Positions 6,503 through 48,883 of a stretch of 64,000 nt of DNA are shown here, piece by piece (position 1 is the stretch's first letter; every line of letters starts with the position of its first letter). The notes under the pieces were generated by a model that saw only the letters and a list, made by a program, of their open reading frames with translations, made no database searches and was not told the DNA's origin. The stretch spans positions 62,001 to 126,000 of the forward strand of contig JAUIAB010000001.1 of the NCBI GenBank assembly GCA_030425505.1. The letters run 5' to 3'. The stretch is from Bacteroidia bacterium. GTDB lineage: Bacteria; Bacteroidota; Bacteroidia; Cytophagales; Flammeovirgaceae. A program made the position numbers and the translations under genes.

Positions 6503-7174
6503 GTGAAAAGAATATACAAAAAAGTAAATGACAAAAAAGTAACAATTAAACATGTTTGTGAAGTAGGGGTGCATATGCCAAAAACCTCTAATGTTCAAGA
6601 CTTTATAAAAGATGGAATCAAAGCAACATTAGTTGAGCCTGACCCAGGTAGTATTCAAGCGATAAAAGAATTTTTCGAAAAGTATAGTAACTGGAAGCTT
6701 TATCCTTTTGCAGTATATGATTATAATGGGGAGTTAGAATTGGCTCAAGCTGGCCCATCAACTTTTGTCGCAAGCCTTCCCTCAAGCCCTGCTTTGGTAA
6801 ATGATAACTATAAGGTGGAAGAAGAAAAGAAGTTTACTGTTCCTTGTAAAATATTTTCAGAAATAGATGATGGCACTATTGATCTTATAAGTATAGATGT
6901 TGAGGGTGCAGAGTGGTACGTTTTAAAAAATATGGTGAGTAAGCCTAAAATAGTTTCCATAGAAACACATGGTAAGTATTACAAAAACCCTTTTTTAGAT
7001 GAAATAAATAACTGGATTGTAGAAAATAAATATAAAGTTTGGTTTAAAGATTCTAGTGATACAGTGTATGTAAAAGAAGGGTTACTCAAGCAAAGCTTTA
7101 AAGAAACTCTAGAAATAAAAATAGTGGAGTTGAAGCTTTCTATAAAAAGAGCAAAAAAGGTTTTTAAGGGATAG
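6503..7174 (+). CDS. FkbM-family SAM-dependent methyltransferase
   Basis: A 223-residue Rossmann-fold methyltransferase. The N-terminal SAM-binding strand reads CEVGVHMP (a variant of the usual DVGANxG), followed by the acidic ribose-binding strand VEPDPGS. The FkbM hallmark DLISIDVEGAEWYVLKNM sits in the C-terminal half. Family members O-methylate sugars or other glycans, and are often found near surface-polysaccharide genes. The frame opens after a stop at 6479-6481 and no ATG precedes the SAM motif, so I use the GTG at 6503. The C-terminus is strongly basic. The gene diverges from the phosphohexomutase. Confidence 0.8.
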   Translation: MKRIYKKVNDKKVTIKHVCEVGVHMPKTSNVQDFIKDGIKATLVEPDPGSIQAIKEFFEKYSNWKLYPFAVYDYNGELELAQAGPSTFVASLPSSPALVNDNYKVEEEKKFTVPCKIFSEIDDGTIDLISIDVEGAEWYVLKNMVSKPKIVSIETHGKYYKNPFLDEINNWIVENKYKVWFKDSSDTVYVKEGLLKQSFKETLEIKIVELKLSIKRAKKVFKG

Positions 7175-7176
7175 AC

Positions 7177-7290
7177 ATGACATCCCAGTTTACTCCTACA
7201 CAACAAGGGATAGTGTCTTTTATCATCTTCATAGTTATCTTTATCTCTGAATTTGTAGACAGACTAAATAGAACATCTTTTGATTGTTAG
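7177..7290 (+). CDS. Possible 37-residue single-span membrane peptide
   Basis: An ATG two bases after the methyltransferase stop opens a 37-codon frame. It encodes a short polar start, one hydrophobic helix (IVSFIIFIVIFISEF) and a polar tail. It overlaps the start of the next gene by 11 bp. Tight spacing and a clean transmembrane helix make it plausible as a translated small protein, but the length is short and no family is recognised. A chance ORF is a real alternative. Confidence 0.3.
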   Translation: MTSQFTPTQQGIVSFIIFIVIFISEFVDRLNRTSFDC

Positions 7291-10054
7291 GTTTCAAAAA
7301 ACATTTTACAGGCTTTTTGCACTTACCATTATTCTTTTAGGGTGTAGTTATTCTTCATCCTATGCTACCCATATAAGAGCTGGGGACTTGACAGCAGTAA
7401 GAATTGATTCCAATTCGTTGACGTACCACATTACGGTTATTTTGTATTTGGATACAGACGGAATTGACCCAGGAGACGGCTTTATTGATTTTGGCGCAGG
7501 AGAAGATCCGCTTAGAGTATCCCCACAGGTGGTTCAGGTAATTCCCGAACTAAGAACGCAAGTGGTTCAATATTCTGTAGAATATACATTTCCTTCTGCT
7601 GGCTTTTATAAAATCAGCTATTTTGAAGATAATAGAAATGCGAATGTAAATAATATGGCTCTTTCTGTTGATACTCCTTTCTACATTGAGTCAGAAATTT
7701 TGATTAATCCAGTGTTAGGCTTAAATAGCACTCCTCTTCTATCGATTGCTCCATTGGATGGGGCTGTTGTAGGACAAAAATTTACACATAACCCTGGTGC
7801 TTATGACAAGGAAGGAGATAGCCTTTCATATGAGCTTACTGTTTGTAAGCAGGCAAGGGATCTTGATGTTTTAGATTATACCTTTCCTGATAACTCTCAA
7901 TGGAGTGATGAAAGGGAAGATGGAAGCACTCCTGCCATTTTTTCAATAGATCCTTTAACAGGAGATCTGGTATGGGATGCGCCGGGAGTTCCTGGTGAAT
8001 ATAATGTGGCATTTTATGTAAATGAGTGGAGAGACGGCGTGTTAATTGGCCGAGTCAATAGGGATATGCAAATCATAGTTCGTGAGCACGAAAATCAGCG
8101 ACCGAATTTGATTTTGCCTGCAGATACTTGTTTAGTAGCAGGAAGCTTTTTACAAGATACTATCCAAGCTATTGATCCAGATGGAGATTTTGTCCAGCTC
8201 ACTATTGCTGGAGACCAAGATAATTTTGAGGGGCTATTCAACCTCCCTGAGCCTAGGAGTAGTGCTACATTTGAGCTTTTAAACCTTCAACCGCCAAATG
8301 GTGAAGAAAGAGGGCTTTTTAGCTGGCAAACTTCTTGCCTAGATGTGAGAAGAGAGCCTTATCTAGCTGTTTTCAAGGCTGAAGACCAGCCTGAGGGTTT
8401 TGGAAGGGTTTTGGCAGATATTAAAAGCTGGTTGATTAGAGTGATTGGTCCTGCTCCAGAAAATTTTTCTGCTTTAGCAAATGAAGATGATTTAAGTATT
8501 GAGTTGAGTTGGGATGTTTACACCTGCCCAAATGCAGAAAGAATGACCATATGGAGAAGACGAGGCTCTTATCCTTTTGAACCTGCTGGCTGCACCGTTG
8601 GAATTCCAGAAGAAGCAGGTTATGAAAGAATTGGAGAAGTGGACATCAATCAGACTTCATTTTTGGACGACAATAATGGAGATGGTCTGGAGAGAGGTGT
8701 AAATTACTGCTACAGGATTTATGCTGTTTTTCCAGAACCTGCTGGAGGAGAAAGTTATGCTTCAGTTGAGGTATGCGCATTTATACCAAGTATTGCGCCT
8801 TATATTACCAATGTTTCTGTACTAGAAACAGGTCAAGACAATGGTCAAATTGAAGTTATCTGGACTAAGCCTCAAGAAATTGACCCTGAGGAGGTTGCTC
8901 TACCTATTACGTATCAGCTGGAAAGATCTTTGGATGGAGAAGAATTTACAGTTATTGCATCTAATGTTGCTGAAGAGGACACTACTTTTTTAGATTCTGG
9001 GATAAATACCCTTAATGAGGTATTTACATATAAAGTAGGGCTTTACGACGCCAATAGTAATTTATTAGAGTATTCGTTAGAAGCTTCTTCTGTAAGATTA
9101 AGTGGATCACCTACAGCTAATAGCATTGATCTTAATTGGTCAGCTACTGTTCCTTGGAACAATAGCTCTGCTAGTTTCCCTTTCCACTATGTTTATAGAA
9201 AAGTAGAAGGAGAGGAAGCATTTACTTTGATTGACAGTGTTGATGTGTTTGAGAATGGCTTTCAATATGAGGATACTGGTGGCAATATTGTTTTAGAGCA
9301 AGACACACAATACTGTTATTATATTACTACAAGTGGAAGTTATGAGAATGATATTATCAGAGAACCACTACTAAATAATAGCCAGGAGTTTTGCTCCTTT
9401 ATTTTAGATGAGCAAGTACCTTGTCCTCCTATTTTGTCTTTGAAAAAGTTAAATTGTGATGAACTCATTTTAGAACAAGACCCCCAAACAGACTGTGTGG
9501 ACGAAGTTTATGTAAATGAGCTAACTTGGATAGATTCCAATGAGGCTAACTGTGAACAAGATATTGTATCATATAATTTATATTATAGTCCTACAGGAAC
9601 AGAAGGAACATTTGAGTTACTAGTTAACACCCCTAACAAGTTTTTCAATCATGAAGACCTAGTATCTGTAGAAGGGTGTTATGCAGTTACAGCAGTAGAT
9701 GAAGTTGGCAATGAAAGTCCTTTTAGCAATATTGAGTGCAACGAAAACTGCCCATTTTATAAGTTGCCAAATGCCTTTACCCCAAGATCTGGTAATAATA
9801 ATATCAACTCCAAATTTGTCCCTATACGGTGTCCTAGGTTTGTCCAAAGGGTGGAGTTTAAGGTTTATAACCGCTGGGGAGAGCTGCTATACGAAAGTGA
9901 TGATGATATTTATTTGAACTGGAGAGGCGTGGATAGTAAAGGAAGTGAGCTAAGCCAGGGAGTTTATTATTACACTGCGCAGGTAACCTTCTATGGTCAA
10001 CTTGGTGATGACAACTCTGAGTTTATCAAAGGCTGGGTTTATATTTTGTATTAA
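7280..10054 (+). CDS. Large secreted protein with gliding-associated C-terminal (CHU_C, T9SS type B) domain
   Basis: A 924-residue exported protein. The start is a TTG (7280), chosen because it gives a complete signal peptide (RLFALTIILLGCSYSSSYA) just before THIRAGDLTAVRI, a typical mature N-terminus of these Cytophagales proteins. The middle has beta-rich, Ig/fibronectin-like segments, including SLSYELTVCKQ, YCYRIYAVFPEP and YCYYITTSGSY. The last ~95 residues (PNAFTPRSGNNN to the end, with FKVYNRWGELLYES and GVYYYTAQVTF) are the CHU_C domain that directs export by the type IX system and surface attachment. The function of the body is unknown, with adhesion a reasonable guess. Its stop overlaps the start of the next gene (TAATG). 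Confidence 0.85.
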   Translation: MIVRFQKTFYRLFALTIILLGCSYSSSYATHIRAGDLTAVRIDSNSLTYHITVILYLDTDGIDPGDGFIDFGAGEDPLRVSPQVVQVIPELRTQVVQYSVEYTFPSAGFYKISYFEDNRNANVNNMALSVDTPFYIESEILINPVLGLNSTPLLSIAPLDGAVVGQKFTHNPGAYDKEGDSLSYELTVCKQARDLDVLDYTFPDNSQWSDEREDGSTPAIFSIDPLTGDLVWDAPGVPGEYNVAFYVNEWRDGVLIGRVNRDMQIIVREHENQRPNLILPADTCLVAGSFLQDTIQAIDPDGDFVQLTIAGDQDNFEGLFNLPEPRSSATFELLNLQPPNGEERGLFSWQTSCLDVRREPYLAVFKAEDQPEGFGRVLADIKSWLIRVIGPAPENFSALANEDDLSIELSWDVYTCPNAERMTIWRRRGSYPFEPAGCTVGIPEEAGYERIGEVDINQTSFLDDNNGDGLERGVNYCYRIYAVFPEPAGGESYASVEVCAFIPSIAPYITNVSVLETGQDNGQIEVIWTKPQEIDPEEVALPITYQLERSLDGEEFTVIASNVAEEDTTFLDSGINTLNEVFTYKVGLYDANSNLLEYSLEASSVRLSGSPTANSIDLNWSATVPWNNSSASFPFHYVYRKVEGEEAFTLIDSVDVFENGFQYEDTGGNIVLEQDTQYCYYITTSGSYENDIIREPLLNNSQEFCSFILDEQVPCPPILSLKKLNCDELILEQDPQTDCVDEVYVNELTWIDSNEANCEQDIVSYNLYYSPTGTEGTFELLVNTPNKFFNHEDLVSVEGCYAVTAVDEVGNESPFSNIECNENCPFYKLPNAFTPRSGNNNINSKFVPIRCPRFVQRVEFKVYNRWGELLYESDDDIYLNWRGVDSKGSELSQGVYYYTAQVTFYGQLGDDNSEFIKGWVYILY

Positions 10055-15895: not shown

Positions 15896-15980
15896 GCGGA
15901 TGTGGCGAAATTGGTAGACGCACTAGACTTAGGATCTAGCGCCGCGAGGCATGGGGGTTCGAGTCCCTCCATCCGCACCA
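15896..15980 (+). tRNA. tRNA-Leu (anticodon UAG)
   Basis: A complete class II cloverleaf: 7-bp acceptor (GCGGATG with CATCCGC), Leu-type D-arm GCG-AAATTGGTAGA-CGC, anticodon stem CTAGA/TCTAG with loop CTTAGGA (anticodon TAG at 15930-15932), a long variable arm, a T-arm with GTTCGAG, discriminator A and an encoded CCA. It reads CUN leucine codons. Confidence 0.97.
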
Positions 15981-17444: not shown

Positions 17445-19031
17445 GTGTTCCAGATTATATTTAAATCAACCTTACTTTTATTCTTTTCTTTAGCACTTGG
17501 GATATCAAAGGCTCAAAGAATCCAACAAAAAGAAATAAAGTTTAAAATTGACAATAAACTGGGAGATGATTATATCCTAATTCCACACAGTAACAATGGA
17601 GTACTATGTCTTCACAACCAGTCTAGTAGGTTTGGTAATAACAAAAGAAGCTTACACTACACAATGCTGGATACCTCCCTAAATAAAAAGTGGGAATTTG
17701 ATAATGTTGTTGATTCGAATTTAAGATTCATAGAAAGTGCCATTTCTAAAAAGTCAATATGGCTTTTATTTTCTATAAAGGAGCATCAATACGAAGTACA
17801 CAAATTCGATATTGAGCAGGAAACACAATCAGTATTCGAGATAAATGAAGTGAGATCATTCAACGTGTCTTTTTTTCAGGCAACAGAGCAAGGAGTTTAT
17901 CTGGGAGGGAAGATTAGAAATAATCCTGCCGTCCTGTTTTACGATGCAGAAAAAAACCACACCTCATTTTTACCTGGTATAAACCAACTCAATGTAGATC
18001 TAATCAACCTGAAGGTAGACCCAAGTTATGAACTATTATTTGTTCTTCTACAAGGTCCAAAAATAGGGAAGGATAATGCCCTATTCGCCCACTGTTATAA
18101 CTCTGAAGGGCAGTTTCTTTACAATTATGCTCACCCGCAAAATGTTGAGTACTCTTTTATCACTGCTTTTCCATTTACTAACACCCTGAATGAGCATCTT
18201 TTAGTAGGTACTTACTCTCTTCGTAATGATGATCTGGCTCAAGGAATTTACACCATCAAGCTACTCAAAGGAAATGAAGTAGATAAACGGTTTTATGACT
18301 TTGGGTATTTCAACAATTTCTTTAACTATTTACCTGAAAAACAGAAGAGTAATTTGTTAAAGAAGATTGAAAGGAAAAGAGAAAAAGATAAAGTGTATAC
18401 ATTAAAGTATAAGCTATTTACGCACGAGCCAAGACTAATCAACGATAAAATACTGTTTATGGCAGAGTCCATAGAGTATAACAGAAGAAATAGACCCAAT
18501 AATATCAATAATGTTCCCTTTAACTCAATGTATCCTTATCGATCCTTTAATCGGTTTTACAACAATTTTAACTACCTAAACTGGAGAAGATATATGCCCT
18601 CTACTATTGCAAGGTATGGGGTTAATAATTTTAATGCTACAGATTATGAGTACGAACATGCCTTTGTTTGCTCTTTAAACTTAGACGGAAAGTTACTTTG
18701 GGATAATAGCTATACTTTTGAAAAAGGAACGGAATACGATACTCCTTTAGAGCTGATTGAAGTAGGTGTTTCCAAAGAGAGCTTGGCTTTCATAGAGCCT
18801 TCAAAAGAAAATATTAAATACGCCTTTACTAAAATAAACTCCCCTACAGATTCTACTTCCCAAATATCTGTTTCTACAATAAAAGAAAAGAGCAAAATAA
18901 CCGATTTTGAACATGGGGGCATATTACACTGGTATAGTAATAACTTTATTCATTCTGGAATCCGAAAAGTAATAAACTCAACAAATACAAGAGTGAAATA
19001 TTTTTTTATCAACAAAATTAGTGCTTACTAG
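17445..19031 (+). CDS. Hypothetical secreted protein
   Basis: I do not recognise this 528-residue protein. It has an N-terminal signal peptide (FKSTLLLFFSLALGISKAQ), so it is exported. The rest alternates short beta-like segments, as in propeller-type or carbohydrate-related periplasmic proteins, but no repeat is clear enough to claim this. Around residues 345-390 there is a segment unusually rich in Asn, Arg, Tyr and Phe (such as RRNRPNNINNVPF and FNRFYNNFNYLNWRR). There is no T9SS C-terminal domain. The start is GTG at 17445, the only one that keeps the signal peptide intact, just 4 bp after the preceding terminator's T-run. Confidence 0.75.
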   Translation: MFQIIFKSTLLLFFSLALGISKAQRIQQKEIKFKIDNKLGDDYILIPHSNNGVLCLHNQSSRFGNNKRSLHYTMLDTSLNKKWEFDNVVDSNLRFIESAISKKSIWLLFSIKEHQYEVHKFDIEQETQSVFEINEVRSFNVSFFQATEQGVYLGGKIRNNPAVLFYDAEKNHTSFLPGINQLNVDLINLKVDPSYELLFVLLQGPKIGKDNALFAHCYNSEGQFLYNYAHPQNVEYSFITAFPFTNTLNEHLLVGTYSLRNDDLAQGIYTIKLLKGNEVDKRFYDFGYFNNFFNYLPEKQKSNLLKKIERKREKDKVYTLKYKLFTHEPRLINDKILFMAESIEYNRRNRPNNINNVPFNSMYPYRSFNRFYNNFNYLNWRRYMPSTIARYGVNNFNATDYEYEHAFVCSLNLDGKLLWDNSYTFEKGTEYDTPLELIEVGVSKESLAFIEPSKENIKYAFTKINSPTDSTSQISVSTIKEKSKITDFEHGGILHWYSNNFIHSGIRKVINSTNTRVKYFFINKISAY

Positions 19032-19116
19032 CAAAAAATTTTTCGCCTAAATGTATTTAGCAATGACACTCCAATTAAGCTTAGTCTGAAAACATTAACT
19101 TAAATTAAAAATTCAA

Positions 19117-19455
19117 TTAGTCAGTTGAACTTGAATGGTTTGGCTTGAGCTTATCCATAATAATTTGAGAAATAGCCTTAGCAAGAATGCTTTTTGATTC
19201 TTTCCAGACTCTTTGAGGAAGGGACTTCTTATGCTTTAAACTTGCTTTTTTGTCATACAATGAAGCTCCAACAAGGAATATTCCAATGCTAGCAACACTG
19301 AGCATTAAAAGTGCTTTTGGGTTTACATTTTTTTTAATCTCAGAAGGTTTCAGTTGGCTTCTAAAATTATTTCTAACCAAACCTATTTGGCTCAAAAGCC
19401 TTTTCTTTTCTTCTTTTAGCAATAACTTACTTTTTATCATTCTAATATTTCTCAA
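19117..19455 (-). CDS. Hypothetical single-span membrane protein
   Basis: This 112-residue basic protein is of no recognised family. It has a charged N-terminal half (LLLKEEKKRLLSQIG), one transmembrane helix in the middle (ALLMLSVASIGIFLVGASLYD) and a Lys-rich C-terminal half with a short hydrophobic amphipathic segment (ILAKAISQIIMD). A second ATG five codons in (MIKSK, 19440) is an equally good start. The gene lies about 120 bp downstream of the tRNA-like RNA on the same strand, but nothing shows that they are linked. Confidence 0.6.
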   Translation of the reverse strand: MRNIRMIKSKLLLKEEKKRLLSQIGLVRNNFRSQLKPSEIKKNVNPKALLMLSVASIGIFLVGASLYDKKASLKHKKSLPQRVWKESKSILAKAISQIIMDKLKPNHSSSTD

Positions 19456-19577
19456 GGAATTGTTTGGATTACTTGTAAGTTAATGGTTTTCTTGCTTTTG
19501 TGATAGTCAAAAAATAATGAAATGATGTTTATTGAGGATAAAATCTATTTGTAATCAAGAAGAGAGGGAAGTAAAAG

Positions 19578-19728
19578 CTGTAGAGGAAGGATTCGAACCT
19601 TCAAGAGGTAGTTAGCTTTTGATCAGGGCATGTAAAATATGAATGATACACCCACTCATCAAAAGTTTTTCCAAGTTTCCTCACCCCCGAGAAAGGAGGG
19701 CACGGCTGCCAATTTCGTCACTCTACAG
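19578..19728 (-). ncRNA. tRNA-Leu-like RNA with a very long variable region
   Basis: On the minus strand an 8-bp acceptor-like helix (CTGTAGAG with CTCTACAG, ends at 19728 and 19578) encloses a perfect Leu-type D-arm (ACG, 11-nt loop AAATTGGCAGC, CGT), a 5-bp anticodon-like stem CCCTC/GGGGG with a 7-nt loop CTTTCTC (19700-19684), and a canonical T-arm (GAAGG-TTCGAAT-CCTTC, 19602-19586). The region between anticodon stem and T-arm is about 80 nt instead of ~15. It folds on itself through GAGG/CCTC and an 8-bp helix CTTTTGAT/ATCAAAAG (19665-19658 with 19623-19616). No CCA is encoded. The loop has a pyrimidine at position 37 and nominal anticodon TTC, odd for a decoding tRNA. It could be a tRNA-derived regulatory RNA, an unusual tRNA or a decayed gene. 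Confidence 0.65.
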
Positions 19729-19739
19729 TATGTTTAAGA

Positions 19740-20114
19740 ACTAAATATGATACAAATTTAATACAAAGAAGTTATTTTTAAAAACCATTTAAATAAATTA
19801 AAATATTTTTAGATTTTATATGATATAATGTATTTATAGGTAAAATATTTTTAAAGTTTAAATAAATTTCTTTAACCTTTTGAATACTTTTTATTACAGT
19901 AGCTTAAAACTATTATTTATTCATACTGCTTTACTATAGTTTTTCATTTTTGTACCTTTAGTTTATTTCAAAATGAAAGGTGTTATAATGAATTTCATTG
20001 ATTATTTAGAAATATATTTTATGTCATCACTCTAATACTTAATTTTATGAGTCAAGTTTTTTAAACATTTACAACTACAATAACATTAAACTATTTAGGA
20101 TATAATCTTTAATT
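19740..20114. other. Very A+T-rich intergenic region before etfB
   Basis: About 375 bp of unusually A+T-rich DNA with no supportable ORF. A near-match -7 box (TACCTTTA, about 19954-19961) is present, but its distance from etfB leaves its role open. Confidence 0.4.
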
Positions 20115-20849
20115 ATGAATATTCTCGTATGTATTACTCACGTTCCTGATACCACTACTAAAATTAAGTTTGTAGACGGAAAAGAGTTAGATAAAAATGG
20201 GGTTCAATTTGTAATAGGTCCGTACGATGACTATGCTCTTGCCAGAGCTGTTGAACTCAAAGAATCATTAGGTGCTAAAGTCACTGTTTTAAATGTTGGT
20301 AAGCAGGAAACAGAACCTACAATTAGGAAGGCATTAGCTATAGGTGCAGATGAGGCGATCAGGATAGATGCAGAACCATCAGATGCAATTTTTGTAGCGC
20401 ACCAAATAGCACACATAGCAAAACAAAATAGCTATGATTTAATATTAATGGGGAGGGAATCAAGTGACTATAATGGAGGCTTAGTTCATGGCATGGTTGG
20501 AGAAATGTTAGGGTGGCCTTCTGTTTCGCCTTGTATGAAGCTTGACCTTGAAGGGACAAATGCCAAAATGCAAAAGGAAATTGAAGGAGGAAAAGAACTT
20601 TTGGAAGCTACTCTACCCTTAGTTGCAGGATGCCAAGAACCAATTGCCGAATGGAAAATTCCAAATATGAGAGGGATTATGTCTGCTCGAACTAAACCAC
20701 TTAATGTTGTAGAAGCAATTAGCGTTGAGGGTGCTATTTCATACAATTCCTTTGACCTACCTCCTGAAAGATCTTCTTGTAAGTTTTTTGAAGTTGACCA
20801 AGTAGATGATTTGGTGAACGCTCTTAAAGAAGAAGCAAAAGTTTTATAA
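20115..20849 (+). CDS. etfB: Electron transfer flavoprotein subunit beta
   Basis: This 244-residue subunit binds AMP and pairs with EtfA. Together they carry electrons from acyl-CoA and related dehydrogenases to the quinone pool through ETF-ubiquinone oxidoreductase. The N-terminus MNILVCITHVPDTTTKIKF is typical, as are the central LMGRESSDYNGGLVHGMVGE and the C-terminal IPNMRGIMSARTKPL (EtfB signature region). It is followed 22 bp later by etfA on the same strand, so the two are co-transcribed, as in most bacteria. Confidence 0.95.
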   Translation: MNILVCITHVPDTTTKIKFVDGKELDKNGVQFVIGPYDDYALARAVELKESLGAKVTVLNVGKQETEPTIRKALAIGADEAIRIDAEPSDAIFVAHQIAHIAKQNSYDLILMGRESSDYNGGLVHGMVGEMLGWPSVSPCMKLDLEGTNAKMQKEIEGGKELLEATLPLVAGCQEPIAEWKIPNMRGIMSARTKPLNVVEAISVEGAISYNSFDLPPERSSCKFFEVDQVDDLVNALKEEAKVL

Positions 20850-48761: not shown

Positions 48762-48883
48762 AACAGCTTTGAATATCCCTTCGCCCTCCTTTGATTTGAC
48801 ATAAAACTATCGCGATAATAACTTAAAGGAGGAAGTCGAAAATCCTTTCTAATAGAGTAGATAAAAATCAAAATTCAAATAAA

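Follow-up and report, generated by a model that had tools for sequence, protein, structure and literature searches.

What is encoded on the minus strand at positions 19728..19578 of the 64,000-nucleotide stretch of Bacteroidia DNA analysed here (the window), where the letters fold like a tRNA-Leu and the anticodon loop does not look made for decoding? An initial annotation, made from the letters, described a perfectly paired tRNA-Leu-like RNA and left its role between a tRNA-derived regulatory RNA, an atypical class II tRNA and a decaying tRNA. We followed the element through related genomes and phages, and asked which known tRNA identity rules and which enzymes go with it.

The copy in the window

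The window holds one copy of the tRNA-like RNA, spanning tRNA positions −1 to 73 (Table 1). All eight acceptor positions are paired (C-1:G73 plus seven), the D-stem has 3 bp and is of Leu type, a 5-bp stem closes the anticodon loop CUUUCUC, the long variable region has its own helices and the T-arm is canonical. CCA is not encoded. As first annotated, the would-be anticodon is thus UUC followed by a pyrimidine at position 37 (U37) and then C38, and the large variable arm carries an 8-bp helix of its own.

Table 1. Parts of the tRNA-like RNA and of its upstream region in the window
Feature	Position	Strand	Remark
tRNA-like RNA, positions −1 to 73	19578..19728	-	encoded C74 at 19577
Acceptor stem 5' strand (−1 to 7)	19721..19728	-	U1 at 19727
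Acceptor stem 3' strand and discriminator G73	19578..19585	-	G73 at 19578
D-stem 5' strand	19716..19718	-	98.9% paired, two-sided changes in 2/3 pairs
D-stem 3' strand	19702..19704	-	same stem as 19716..19718
Anticodon arm, 5 bp and 7-nt loop	19684..19700	-	100% paired
Would-be anticodon UUC	19691..19693	-	family mostly GUC; U37 at 19690, C38 at 19689
Variable arm basal stem 5' strand	19679..19682	-	100% paired, two-sided changes in 3/4 pairs
Variable arm basal stem 3' strand	19605..19608	-	partner of 19679..19682
Variable arm internal loop 5' side	19666..19672	-	family consensus X-GAUAAA; X = 19672
Variable arm internal loop 3' side	19611..19615	-	CUAA-Y; Y = 19611
Variable arm distal 8-bp hairpin stem 5' strand	19658..19665	-	window fold
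Variable arm distal hairpin stem 3' strand	19616..19623	-	window fold
T-arm, 5 bp, loop UUCGAAU	19586..19602	-	pairing partly selected by picking script
Putative −7 promoter box TAAATTTG, Bacteroidota type TAnnTTTG	19753..19760	-	no clear −33 box here
BoxA-like AGTTCTTAAACA, between promoter and RNA	19731..19742	-	sequence resemblance

The fold of 19740..19570 beats 200 of 200 dinucleotide shuffles (z = −2.97). Four short copies from the family described below, folded singly, do no better than their shuffles (z from −0.66 to −1.65), so the case for structure rests on covariation.

ARAGORN makes no call at the element, and its only tRNA call in the window is an ordinary tRNA-Leu(UAG) at 15896-15980 (+). 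Rfam 15 reports nothing at gathering score for this copy, so that it does not fall within RF00005, and relaxed thresholds give only two overlapping matches at chance level (E 0.42 and 0.5). Elsewhere in the window lies a DUF805b RNA (RF02914, 40.7 bits; 48826-48863, +), a known candidate cis-regulatory RNA. The genome assembly has a single copy of the tRNA-like RNA, flanked by a 112-aa reading frame and an electron-transfer-flavoprotein gene. The reading frame (19117-19455, −) shares the strand of the RNA, lies some 120 nt downstream of it and has no Pfam or NCBIfam match.

A family supported by covariation

Searching the DNA of 58 genomes, we found that many contain near-full-length copies, often in tandem, and we took 66 copies. 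Since several relatives align across almost the full length, the window element is not a product of chance. We aligned 30 non-redundant copies with MAFFT. The script that picked them required at least 6/7 acceptor and 4/5 T-stem pairs as well as GGNAG and UUCRA, which the covariance and BLAST matches used elsewhere did not. In this alignment 95.2% of cells are paired and two-sided changes occur in 17 of 29 pairs; none of 500 shuffles matches any of five measures, and slid structures score far lower. The acceptor reaches 99.2% of cells paired with two-sided changes in 5/8 pairs, a figure that is partly selected.

Because acceptor and T-stem pairing had been partly selected by the picking script, we counted again with those two helices set aside, using the stems of the D-arm, the anticodon arm and the base of the variable arm. 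These unselected stems are 99.7% paired with two-sided changes in 6/12 pairs, and 0/500 shuffles score as high on four measures and 4/500 on the fifth. The anticodon stem contributes a two-sided change in one of its five pairs, the other four being invariant. The acceptor, Leu-type D-arm and T-arm pairing that had been judged too good for chance in a single sequence is thereby borne out by the shuffled folds, the aligned relatives and the covarying stems. Its eighth acceptor pair holds for the window and not for the family: across 213 distinct host copies C-1:G73 appears as 133 CG, 44 UG and 36 AG. As this pair is weak, the acceptor is better read as 7 bp followed by the discriminator G73 and an encoded C74.

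To count genomes we used a covariance model and called a genome RNA-positive only with a best E-value up to 1e-20. By our own count of rows, 139 of the 194 genomes sampled from the order have the RNA, as do 40 of 395 from the phylum; this first-look scan scored few candidates per genome, so that RNA-negative genomes may hide missed copies. The raw tallies (183 and 359) are inflated, since the model (R1) also scores ordinary tRNA-Leu and tRNA-Ser at about 50-62 bits. A pattern scan over genomes of 84,980 species gave at least 119 stretches, whose titles name Cytophagales, Chitinophagales, Sphingobacteriaceae, Saprospiraceae and other Bacteroidota; among the matches listed are single MAGs of Ignavibacteriales and Flavobacteriales, an unclassified MAG and a Cellulophaga record. 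Laboratory strains with the RNA include Chitinophaga pinensis, Dyadobacter fermentans and a Pedobacter strain. All 80 examined of these at least 119 stretches match the model at 88 bits or more. Total RNA length ranges from 96 to 211 nt (median 148).

The family escapes current annotation where we looked. ARAGORN misses the window copy and the RNA at each of 12 further loci, Rfam at E 0.1 has no match at the element in four loci (L262, L065, L016, L007), and BLASTN of a plasmid collection with the window copy gave no match. Within open-licence PMC text we found no title describing this RNA.

Several sets underlie the counts below. The 312 aligned rows reduce to 283 distinct ones, rows with N being excluded; one analysis used 69 loci of L002-L087 with near-duplicates excluded; and two host sets, A2 and A3, overlap in genomes (5 identical copies). 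Set A2 comprises 113 distinct copies that similarity searches with the window copy and its model retrieved, without a pattern. The pattern imposed on loci L088-L167 and L207-L286 fixed the D-loop end, C27, C28, C31, U35, C36, pyrimidine 37, C38, G39, G42, G43 and parts of the arm base, leaving position 34 and the acceptor free. As it thereby fixes loop bases, our loop statistics rest on set A2.

We regard it as nearly certain that the RNA family is real. That the element is a decaying tRNA, a repeat or an insertion artefact has a negligible chance of being right: it would suit an RNA that ARAGORN and Rfam do not recognise, and it is contradicted by compensatory changes, by tandem arrays and promoters, and by conservation that extends through the phylum and into phages. 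The two checks proposed at the outset, conservation in relatives and compensatory change, thus came out in favour of a maintained RNA.

The variable arm

The variable arm consists of a 4-bp basal stem, an internal loop of the form X-GAUAAA / CUAA-Y and a distal hairpin, the distal part varying in length and sequence across the family. The bases X and Y behave as a pair. Among set-A2 copies with CUAA they pair in 103 of 108, against a shuffle mean of 63.1 and a maximum of 80; among phage copies with CUAA they pair in 42 of 42, against a mean of 18.5 and a maximum of 28. The remaining phage copies have another internal loop, mostly GAAAUAG / UGAA, or none (L278, L272).

In the window copy, CCUCCUUUCU resembles the anti-Shine-Dalgarno end of 16S rRNA. 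We rejected mimicry of that end, as the stem strings become CCCGC, CCCAC or CCGCC with compensating pairs in other copies. A second conserved motif, GGGUUGACCAC (or GGGGUAGACCACC), is seen in the distal variable arm of many longer copies, for example L004, L012, L021, L065 and L262. It resembles the stem of a Y RNA. YrlA-type Y RNAs combine tRNA mimicry with a stem domain. We discarded this identity as well: the five stretches scanned have no Rfam match at the element, and, unlike bacterial Y RNA (YrlA, RF02553), the RNA has free acceptor ends.

Other tRNA-like RNAs are also set apart by anatomy. With tmRNA the family shares tRNA-like ends, and tmRNA genes are separately present in some phage loci that hold the RNA; it differs in having a full anticodon arm and no known tag reading frame at a median of 148 nt, and ARAGORN calls no tmRNA at the element in the window or in the 12 further loci. 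tRNA-Sec, selC* and allo-tRNAs, as far as they are described in excerpts of PMC7609411, are likewise class II RNAs with a long arm and an unusual acceptor. In contrast to these, the present RNA has no UCA anticodon, neither a 13-bp (8/5) nor a 9/3 acceptor branch and another D-arm; instead it has a 7-bp acceptor with a weak eighth pair, a 5-bp T-stem and an NUC loop. As a description of anatomy, the term atypical class II tRNA was well chosen.

A tRNA-Leu-like body with aspartate-type positions

All elements of a tRNA body are present, namely acceptor, D-, anticodon and T-arms with GG in the D-loop and UUCRA in the T-loop. Compared by eye with the tRNA-Leu(GAG) of its own genome, the RNA is alike in D-arm, D-loop, base of the variable arm and T-arm. 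It is unlike tRNA-Leu in G73, in U1-A72, in an Asp-like loop with pyrimidine 37 and in a mostly far longer variable region.

In all 113 set-A2 copies we find U1-A72, G2-C71, G73, C74, U35, C36, C38 and a pyrimidine at 37, and the D-loop ends in GGCAG, leaving no position 20a; U33 is present in 103/113 and G34 in 93/113, the wobble base being otherwise A, C or U. The window copy, with U34, is among the 20 without G34. U1-A72 is kept in 212 of 213 distinct host copies while other acceptor pairs covary, and in phage copies U1-A72 and G73 are found in 69 of 69 readable cases while pairs 3 to 6 vary and G34 is present in 70 of 70. The loop was rightly called one of non-decoding type, and it is far from random.

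Excerpts of PMC9976931 list G73, G34, U35, C36 and C38 as strong Asp determinants and G2-C71 as a minor one; they also state that U1-A72 confers amidation of Asp-tRNA and that G1-C72 and U20a, found in tRNA-Asp, are antideterminants. All five strong determinants occur together in 93/113 set-A2 and 69/70 phage copies, and U1-A72 without G1-C72 or U20a, the pattern expected of a GatCAB substrate, in 113/113. At the level of sequence, the family carries the Asp identity set published in that excerpt (with G34 in the majority) together with the tRNA-amidation determinant. The first pair also counts against charging with aspartate, because bacterial G1-C72 is said in these excerpts to help AspRS place the 3' end of tRNA-Asp and the RNA has U1-A72. 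The absence of G34 from the window copy and the 19 others weighs in the same direction, and the long variable arm might be an obstacle to AspRS.

An identity other than aspartate also has to be weighed. The excerpts of PMC9976931 describe a switch from Leu to Ser upon A73 to G73, with Ser identity ignoring the anticodon, a point in favour of serine. The RNA could then be charged with serine by SerRS, or with nothing, and serve as a sensor, decoy or ribosome-bound RNA, its link to GatB being one of ancestry. We consider this improbable: the resemblance of the body to the genome's own tRNA-Leu speaks for it, and it leaves the conserved U35, C36, C38 and U1-A72 unexplained.

Would the RNA decode? 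Among ordinary tRNAs of the pattern-fetched loci, position 37 is a purine in 407/410 and a pyrimidine in 3/410 (the L278 element excluded), and ordinary Asp loops there are mostly CUGUCAC, one base apart from the family's CUGUCUC. In contrast to decoding tRNAs, the family has a pyrimidine at 37 throughout set A2 and in 209 of 213 distinct host copies. The other four have G37; they are second copies in Mucilaginibacter with the loop UUGUCGC (L088 5942-5822, L124 3304-3184, L150 1693-1573 and L152 7411-7291, all minus strand). A tRNA reading GAY (Asp) codons, perhaps inserting Asn under stress or infection, would agree with the GUC anticodon of most copies, the intact tRNA body and those four G37 copies. 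Pyrimidine 37 and a wobble base that varies to A, C and U argue the other way, and we rate this reading as very unlikely.

Promoters, arrays and neighbouring genes

A TAnnTTTG box lies at most 90 nt upstream in 90 of 137 distinct first host copies (single-base shuffles: mean 8.9, maximum 16), and in 59 of the 137 it is preceded by TTG at 17-24 nt (shuffle mean 0.9). We take TAnnTTTG to be the Bacteroidota −7 promoter consensus. A generic sigma-70 and terminator scan of window positions 19000..20200 gave nothing above chance. GTTCTT is found upstream in 33 of 137 first copies (shuffle mean 3.0); this string and the AGTTCTTAAACA of the window resemble boxA, and a similar string is also present in the 16S leader of one genome (G012, the one usable leader from 10 genomes).

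Spacers between copies within loci have a median of 40 nt (n=84). By eye, a hairpin with a T run follows many of 20 printed loci. Between the last copy and the terminator-like hairpin, similar trailer strings (GGTTTTTAGTTTGTTGATG or TTTAGGTTTATAATTGGTTAG) are seen in loci such as L004, L012, L053, L088 and L120.

A divergent AsnC/Lrp-family gene lies upstream in 52 of 80 named host loci and in 38 of 64 other distinct host loci, with median gaps to the RNA of 132 and 123 nt in the two host sets; the sets share genomes, so these counts are not summed. The Ignavibacteriales locus also has such a gene, and in the window's genome an AsnC homologue is found on a different contig. One family member has AsnC as its best NCBIfam match at 148.6 bits, below the equivalog cut-off of 227. 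The wobble base shows no association with AsnC (Fisher p = 0.13). A sufB-like cluster adjoins 15 of 86 compared loci (1.5-kb flanks).

In two genomes of family f9, GlnRS-like genes lie near the RNA (L333 2875-3795, −, about 0.3 kb away; L334 3485-4240, −, about 1.2 kb away). They presumably encode glutamyl-Q tRNA(Asp) synthetase, an enzyme that acts on the tRNA-Asp anticodon.

Copies in phages

The same pattern gave at least 120 stretches on viral contigs. Those examined, 80 in number, all match the model, with scores from 69 to 139 bits, and one of them is cut at the stretch end. Contigs carrying the RNA reach 288 kb. Terminase and portal genes lie within 9 kb of the RNA in L230, and phage polymerases or a structural protein occur in three further viral loci. 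BLASTN of a named phage collection with two phage copies gave no match. An AsnC-family neighbour is found in 0 of 70 phage loci. The D-loops of some phage copies, for example L221, L262 and L282, have additional hairpins between GAAA and GGCAG.

At least five other tRNAs accompany the RNA in 22 of 80 viral loci and none within the stretch in 35 of 80, and some copies sit within phage tRNA arrays. In L262 the RNA, a tmRNA, a GOLLD RNA and 25 tRNA genes occur together; the GOLLD RNA (6933-7342, +, 268 bits) lies inside the tRNA array beside the tmRNA and the tRNA-like RNA. Most tRNA genes in the loci listed for 3' ends stop at C without CCA by their ARAGORN ends; in L262 this holds for 22 of 25, with 2 encoding CCA. 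In L278, where ARAGORN calls the phage copy a tRNA-Asp, all 6 called genes including the element encode CCA.

The place of the RNA in phage tRNA arrays is a further point for a tRNA that decodes Asp codons. An ordinary tRNA-Asp is already present in 8 of 36 scanned phage loci, which is a point against it. Phage carriage in itself suggests that the RNA matters during infection.

GatB is retained beside the RNA

To compare the RNA with the amidation machinery we searched GatB (TIGR00133) in 66 + 80 genomes that had been chosen by RNA status with GatB still unseen. The search for GlnRS (TIGR00440) covered 123 of the 146 genomes (all of the 66 and 57 of the 80), and that for AsnRS (TIGR00457) covered 80. 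The 57 were picked with GatB known: every RNA-positive genome was taken, and every RNA-negative genome of the same class. The other 23 belong to other classes and are RNA-negative; GatB passes the cut-off in 21 of them. GlnRS-tested RNA-negative genomes of other classes all are without GlnRS (5/5).

Where GlnRS is over cut-off, all 47 tested RNA-positive genomes have GatB, as do 3 of the 29 tested RNA-negative ones (Fisher p 2.4e-17, uncorrected for ancestry). The three exceptions are G073, G149 and G167, where missed RNA copies are possible; G042, whose GlnRS is truncated where a contig stops and in which we found no RNA and no GatB, was excluded from the 29. Without GlnRS, GatB is present in 21/21 RNA-positive and 24/25 RNA-negative genomes, G142 (84% complete) having none. 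Within families f23 and f24 taken together, GatB is found in 18/18 genomes with the RNA and 0/5 without, and as the split recurs inside each family it is not one deep split. This repetition also argues against serine charging or another task with a GatB link by ancestry. Three exceptions apart, the tested Bacteroidota that charge Gln directly have kept GatB only where this RNA is found.

AsnRS is over cut-off in all 32 tested of the 47 genomes that have the RNA, GlnRS and GatB. We considered whether the RNA replaces asparagine synthetase and rejected this, AsnB being over cut-off in 39 of 42 tested RNA-bearing genomes; a plain need for asparagine thus does not explain the RNA.

The combination of enzymes has precedents. 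According to excerpts of PMC4206432, 68 of 547 genera have AsnRS, GlnRS and GatCAB, 18 of them without asparagine synthetase, with Bacteroidetes among them and a U1-A72 tRNA-Asn in all, and in delta-proteobacteria that also have asparagine synthetase the retention of GatCAB may be vestigial. Excerpts of PMC3927822 sort 14 Bacteroidetes into 12 with GlnRS and no GatCAB and one with both, among others. The U1-A72 tRNA-Asn of the former genera makes an ordinary tRNA-Asn route a live alternative reason for GatCAB. We found no host tRNA-Asn within the fetched loci. The co-occurrence is not independent of shared ancestry, and GatCAB might be kept for ordinary tRNA-Asn instead.

tRNA-dependent Asn synthesis as outlined in excerpts of PMC4206432 (Deinococcus, Thermus, Bdellovibrio) resembles the present case in U1-A72 as amidation determinant, in the enzymes AspRS and GatCAB and in genomes that also have AsnRS and GlnRS. 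It differs in its carrier, which there is the decoding tRNA-Asn and here would be a separate Leu-bodied RNA with pyrimidine 37 and a long arm.

A second use of the same enzymes has to be considered. The RNA may bind or scaffold AspRS and GatCAB as in a transamidosome, or inhibit them, and so control amidation of ordinary tRNA-Asn or tRNA-Gln. The GatB co-occurrence fits this equally, as do the arrays and promoters, and charging alone would not call for so large and structured an arm or for its conserved internal loop. The 47 genomes with GlnRS, with AsnRS in every one tested, show no evident ordinary amidation route to control. We see a scaffold or inhibitor as unlikely.

A possible non-decoding carrier of asparagine

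The explanation that we tentatively put first, while giving it slightly less than an even chance, is a non-decoding tRNA that is charged with Asp and then amidated by GatCAB. A tRNA-Leu gene would have exchanged its Leu discriminator A73 for G73 and its decoding loop for an anticodon loop like that of tRNA-Asp, and would have acquired U1-A72 as its first pair and a structured variable arm. Judging from the anatomy of the loci, the resulting RNA would be stable and transcribed from its own promoter, often as an array, and it may mature and receive its CCA tail as a tRNA does. AspRS would charge it with aspartate, and GatCAB, to which it is tied by co-occurrence, would amidate the product to asparagine. 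Pyrimidine 37 and the large arm would exclude this product from ordinary decoding. The divergent AsnC-family regulator probably makes expression responsive to asparagine or to some related amino acid, and the most likely use of the amidated RNA would be delivery or sensing of Asn.

Somewhat more doubtful is the wider proposal that much of the Bacteroidota retains GatCAB in order to make Asn on this dedicated RNA, under AsnC control and with phages bringing their own copy. The part that assigns the carrier to delivery or sensing beyond codon reading belongs to the same proposal and is put forward just as cautiously. Besides the points on charging given above, the absence of AsnC from phage loci, the G37 of four host copies and the wobble base unlinked to AsnC weigh against the explanation that we put first. 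Of the first suggestion of a tRNA-derived regulatory RNA, the derivation stands, and as to function a carrier that is charged, amidated and linked to GatCAB is what the evidence favours first.

The RNA is present in 139 of 194 genomes of its order and on phage contigs, yet without an Rfam match where scanned. Should the wider proposal be true, it would account for the persistence of GatCAB here alongside AsnRS, GlnRS and asparagine synthetase. If GatCAB does act on the RNA, a non-decoding carrier takes part in tRNA-dependent amino-acid chemistry. The RNA makes the question of GatCAB retention in Bacteroidota directly testable.
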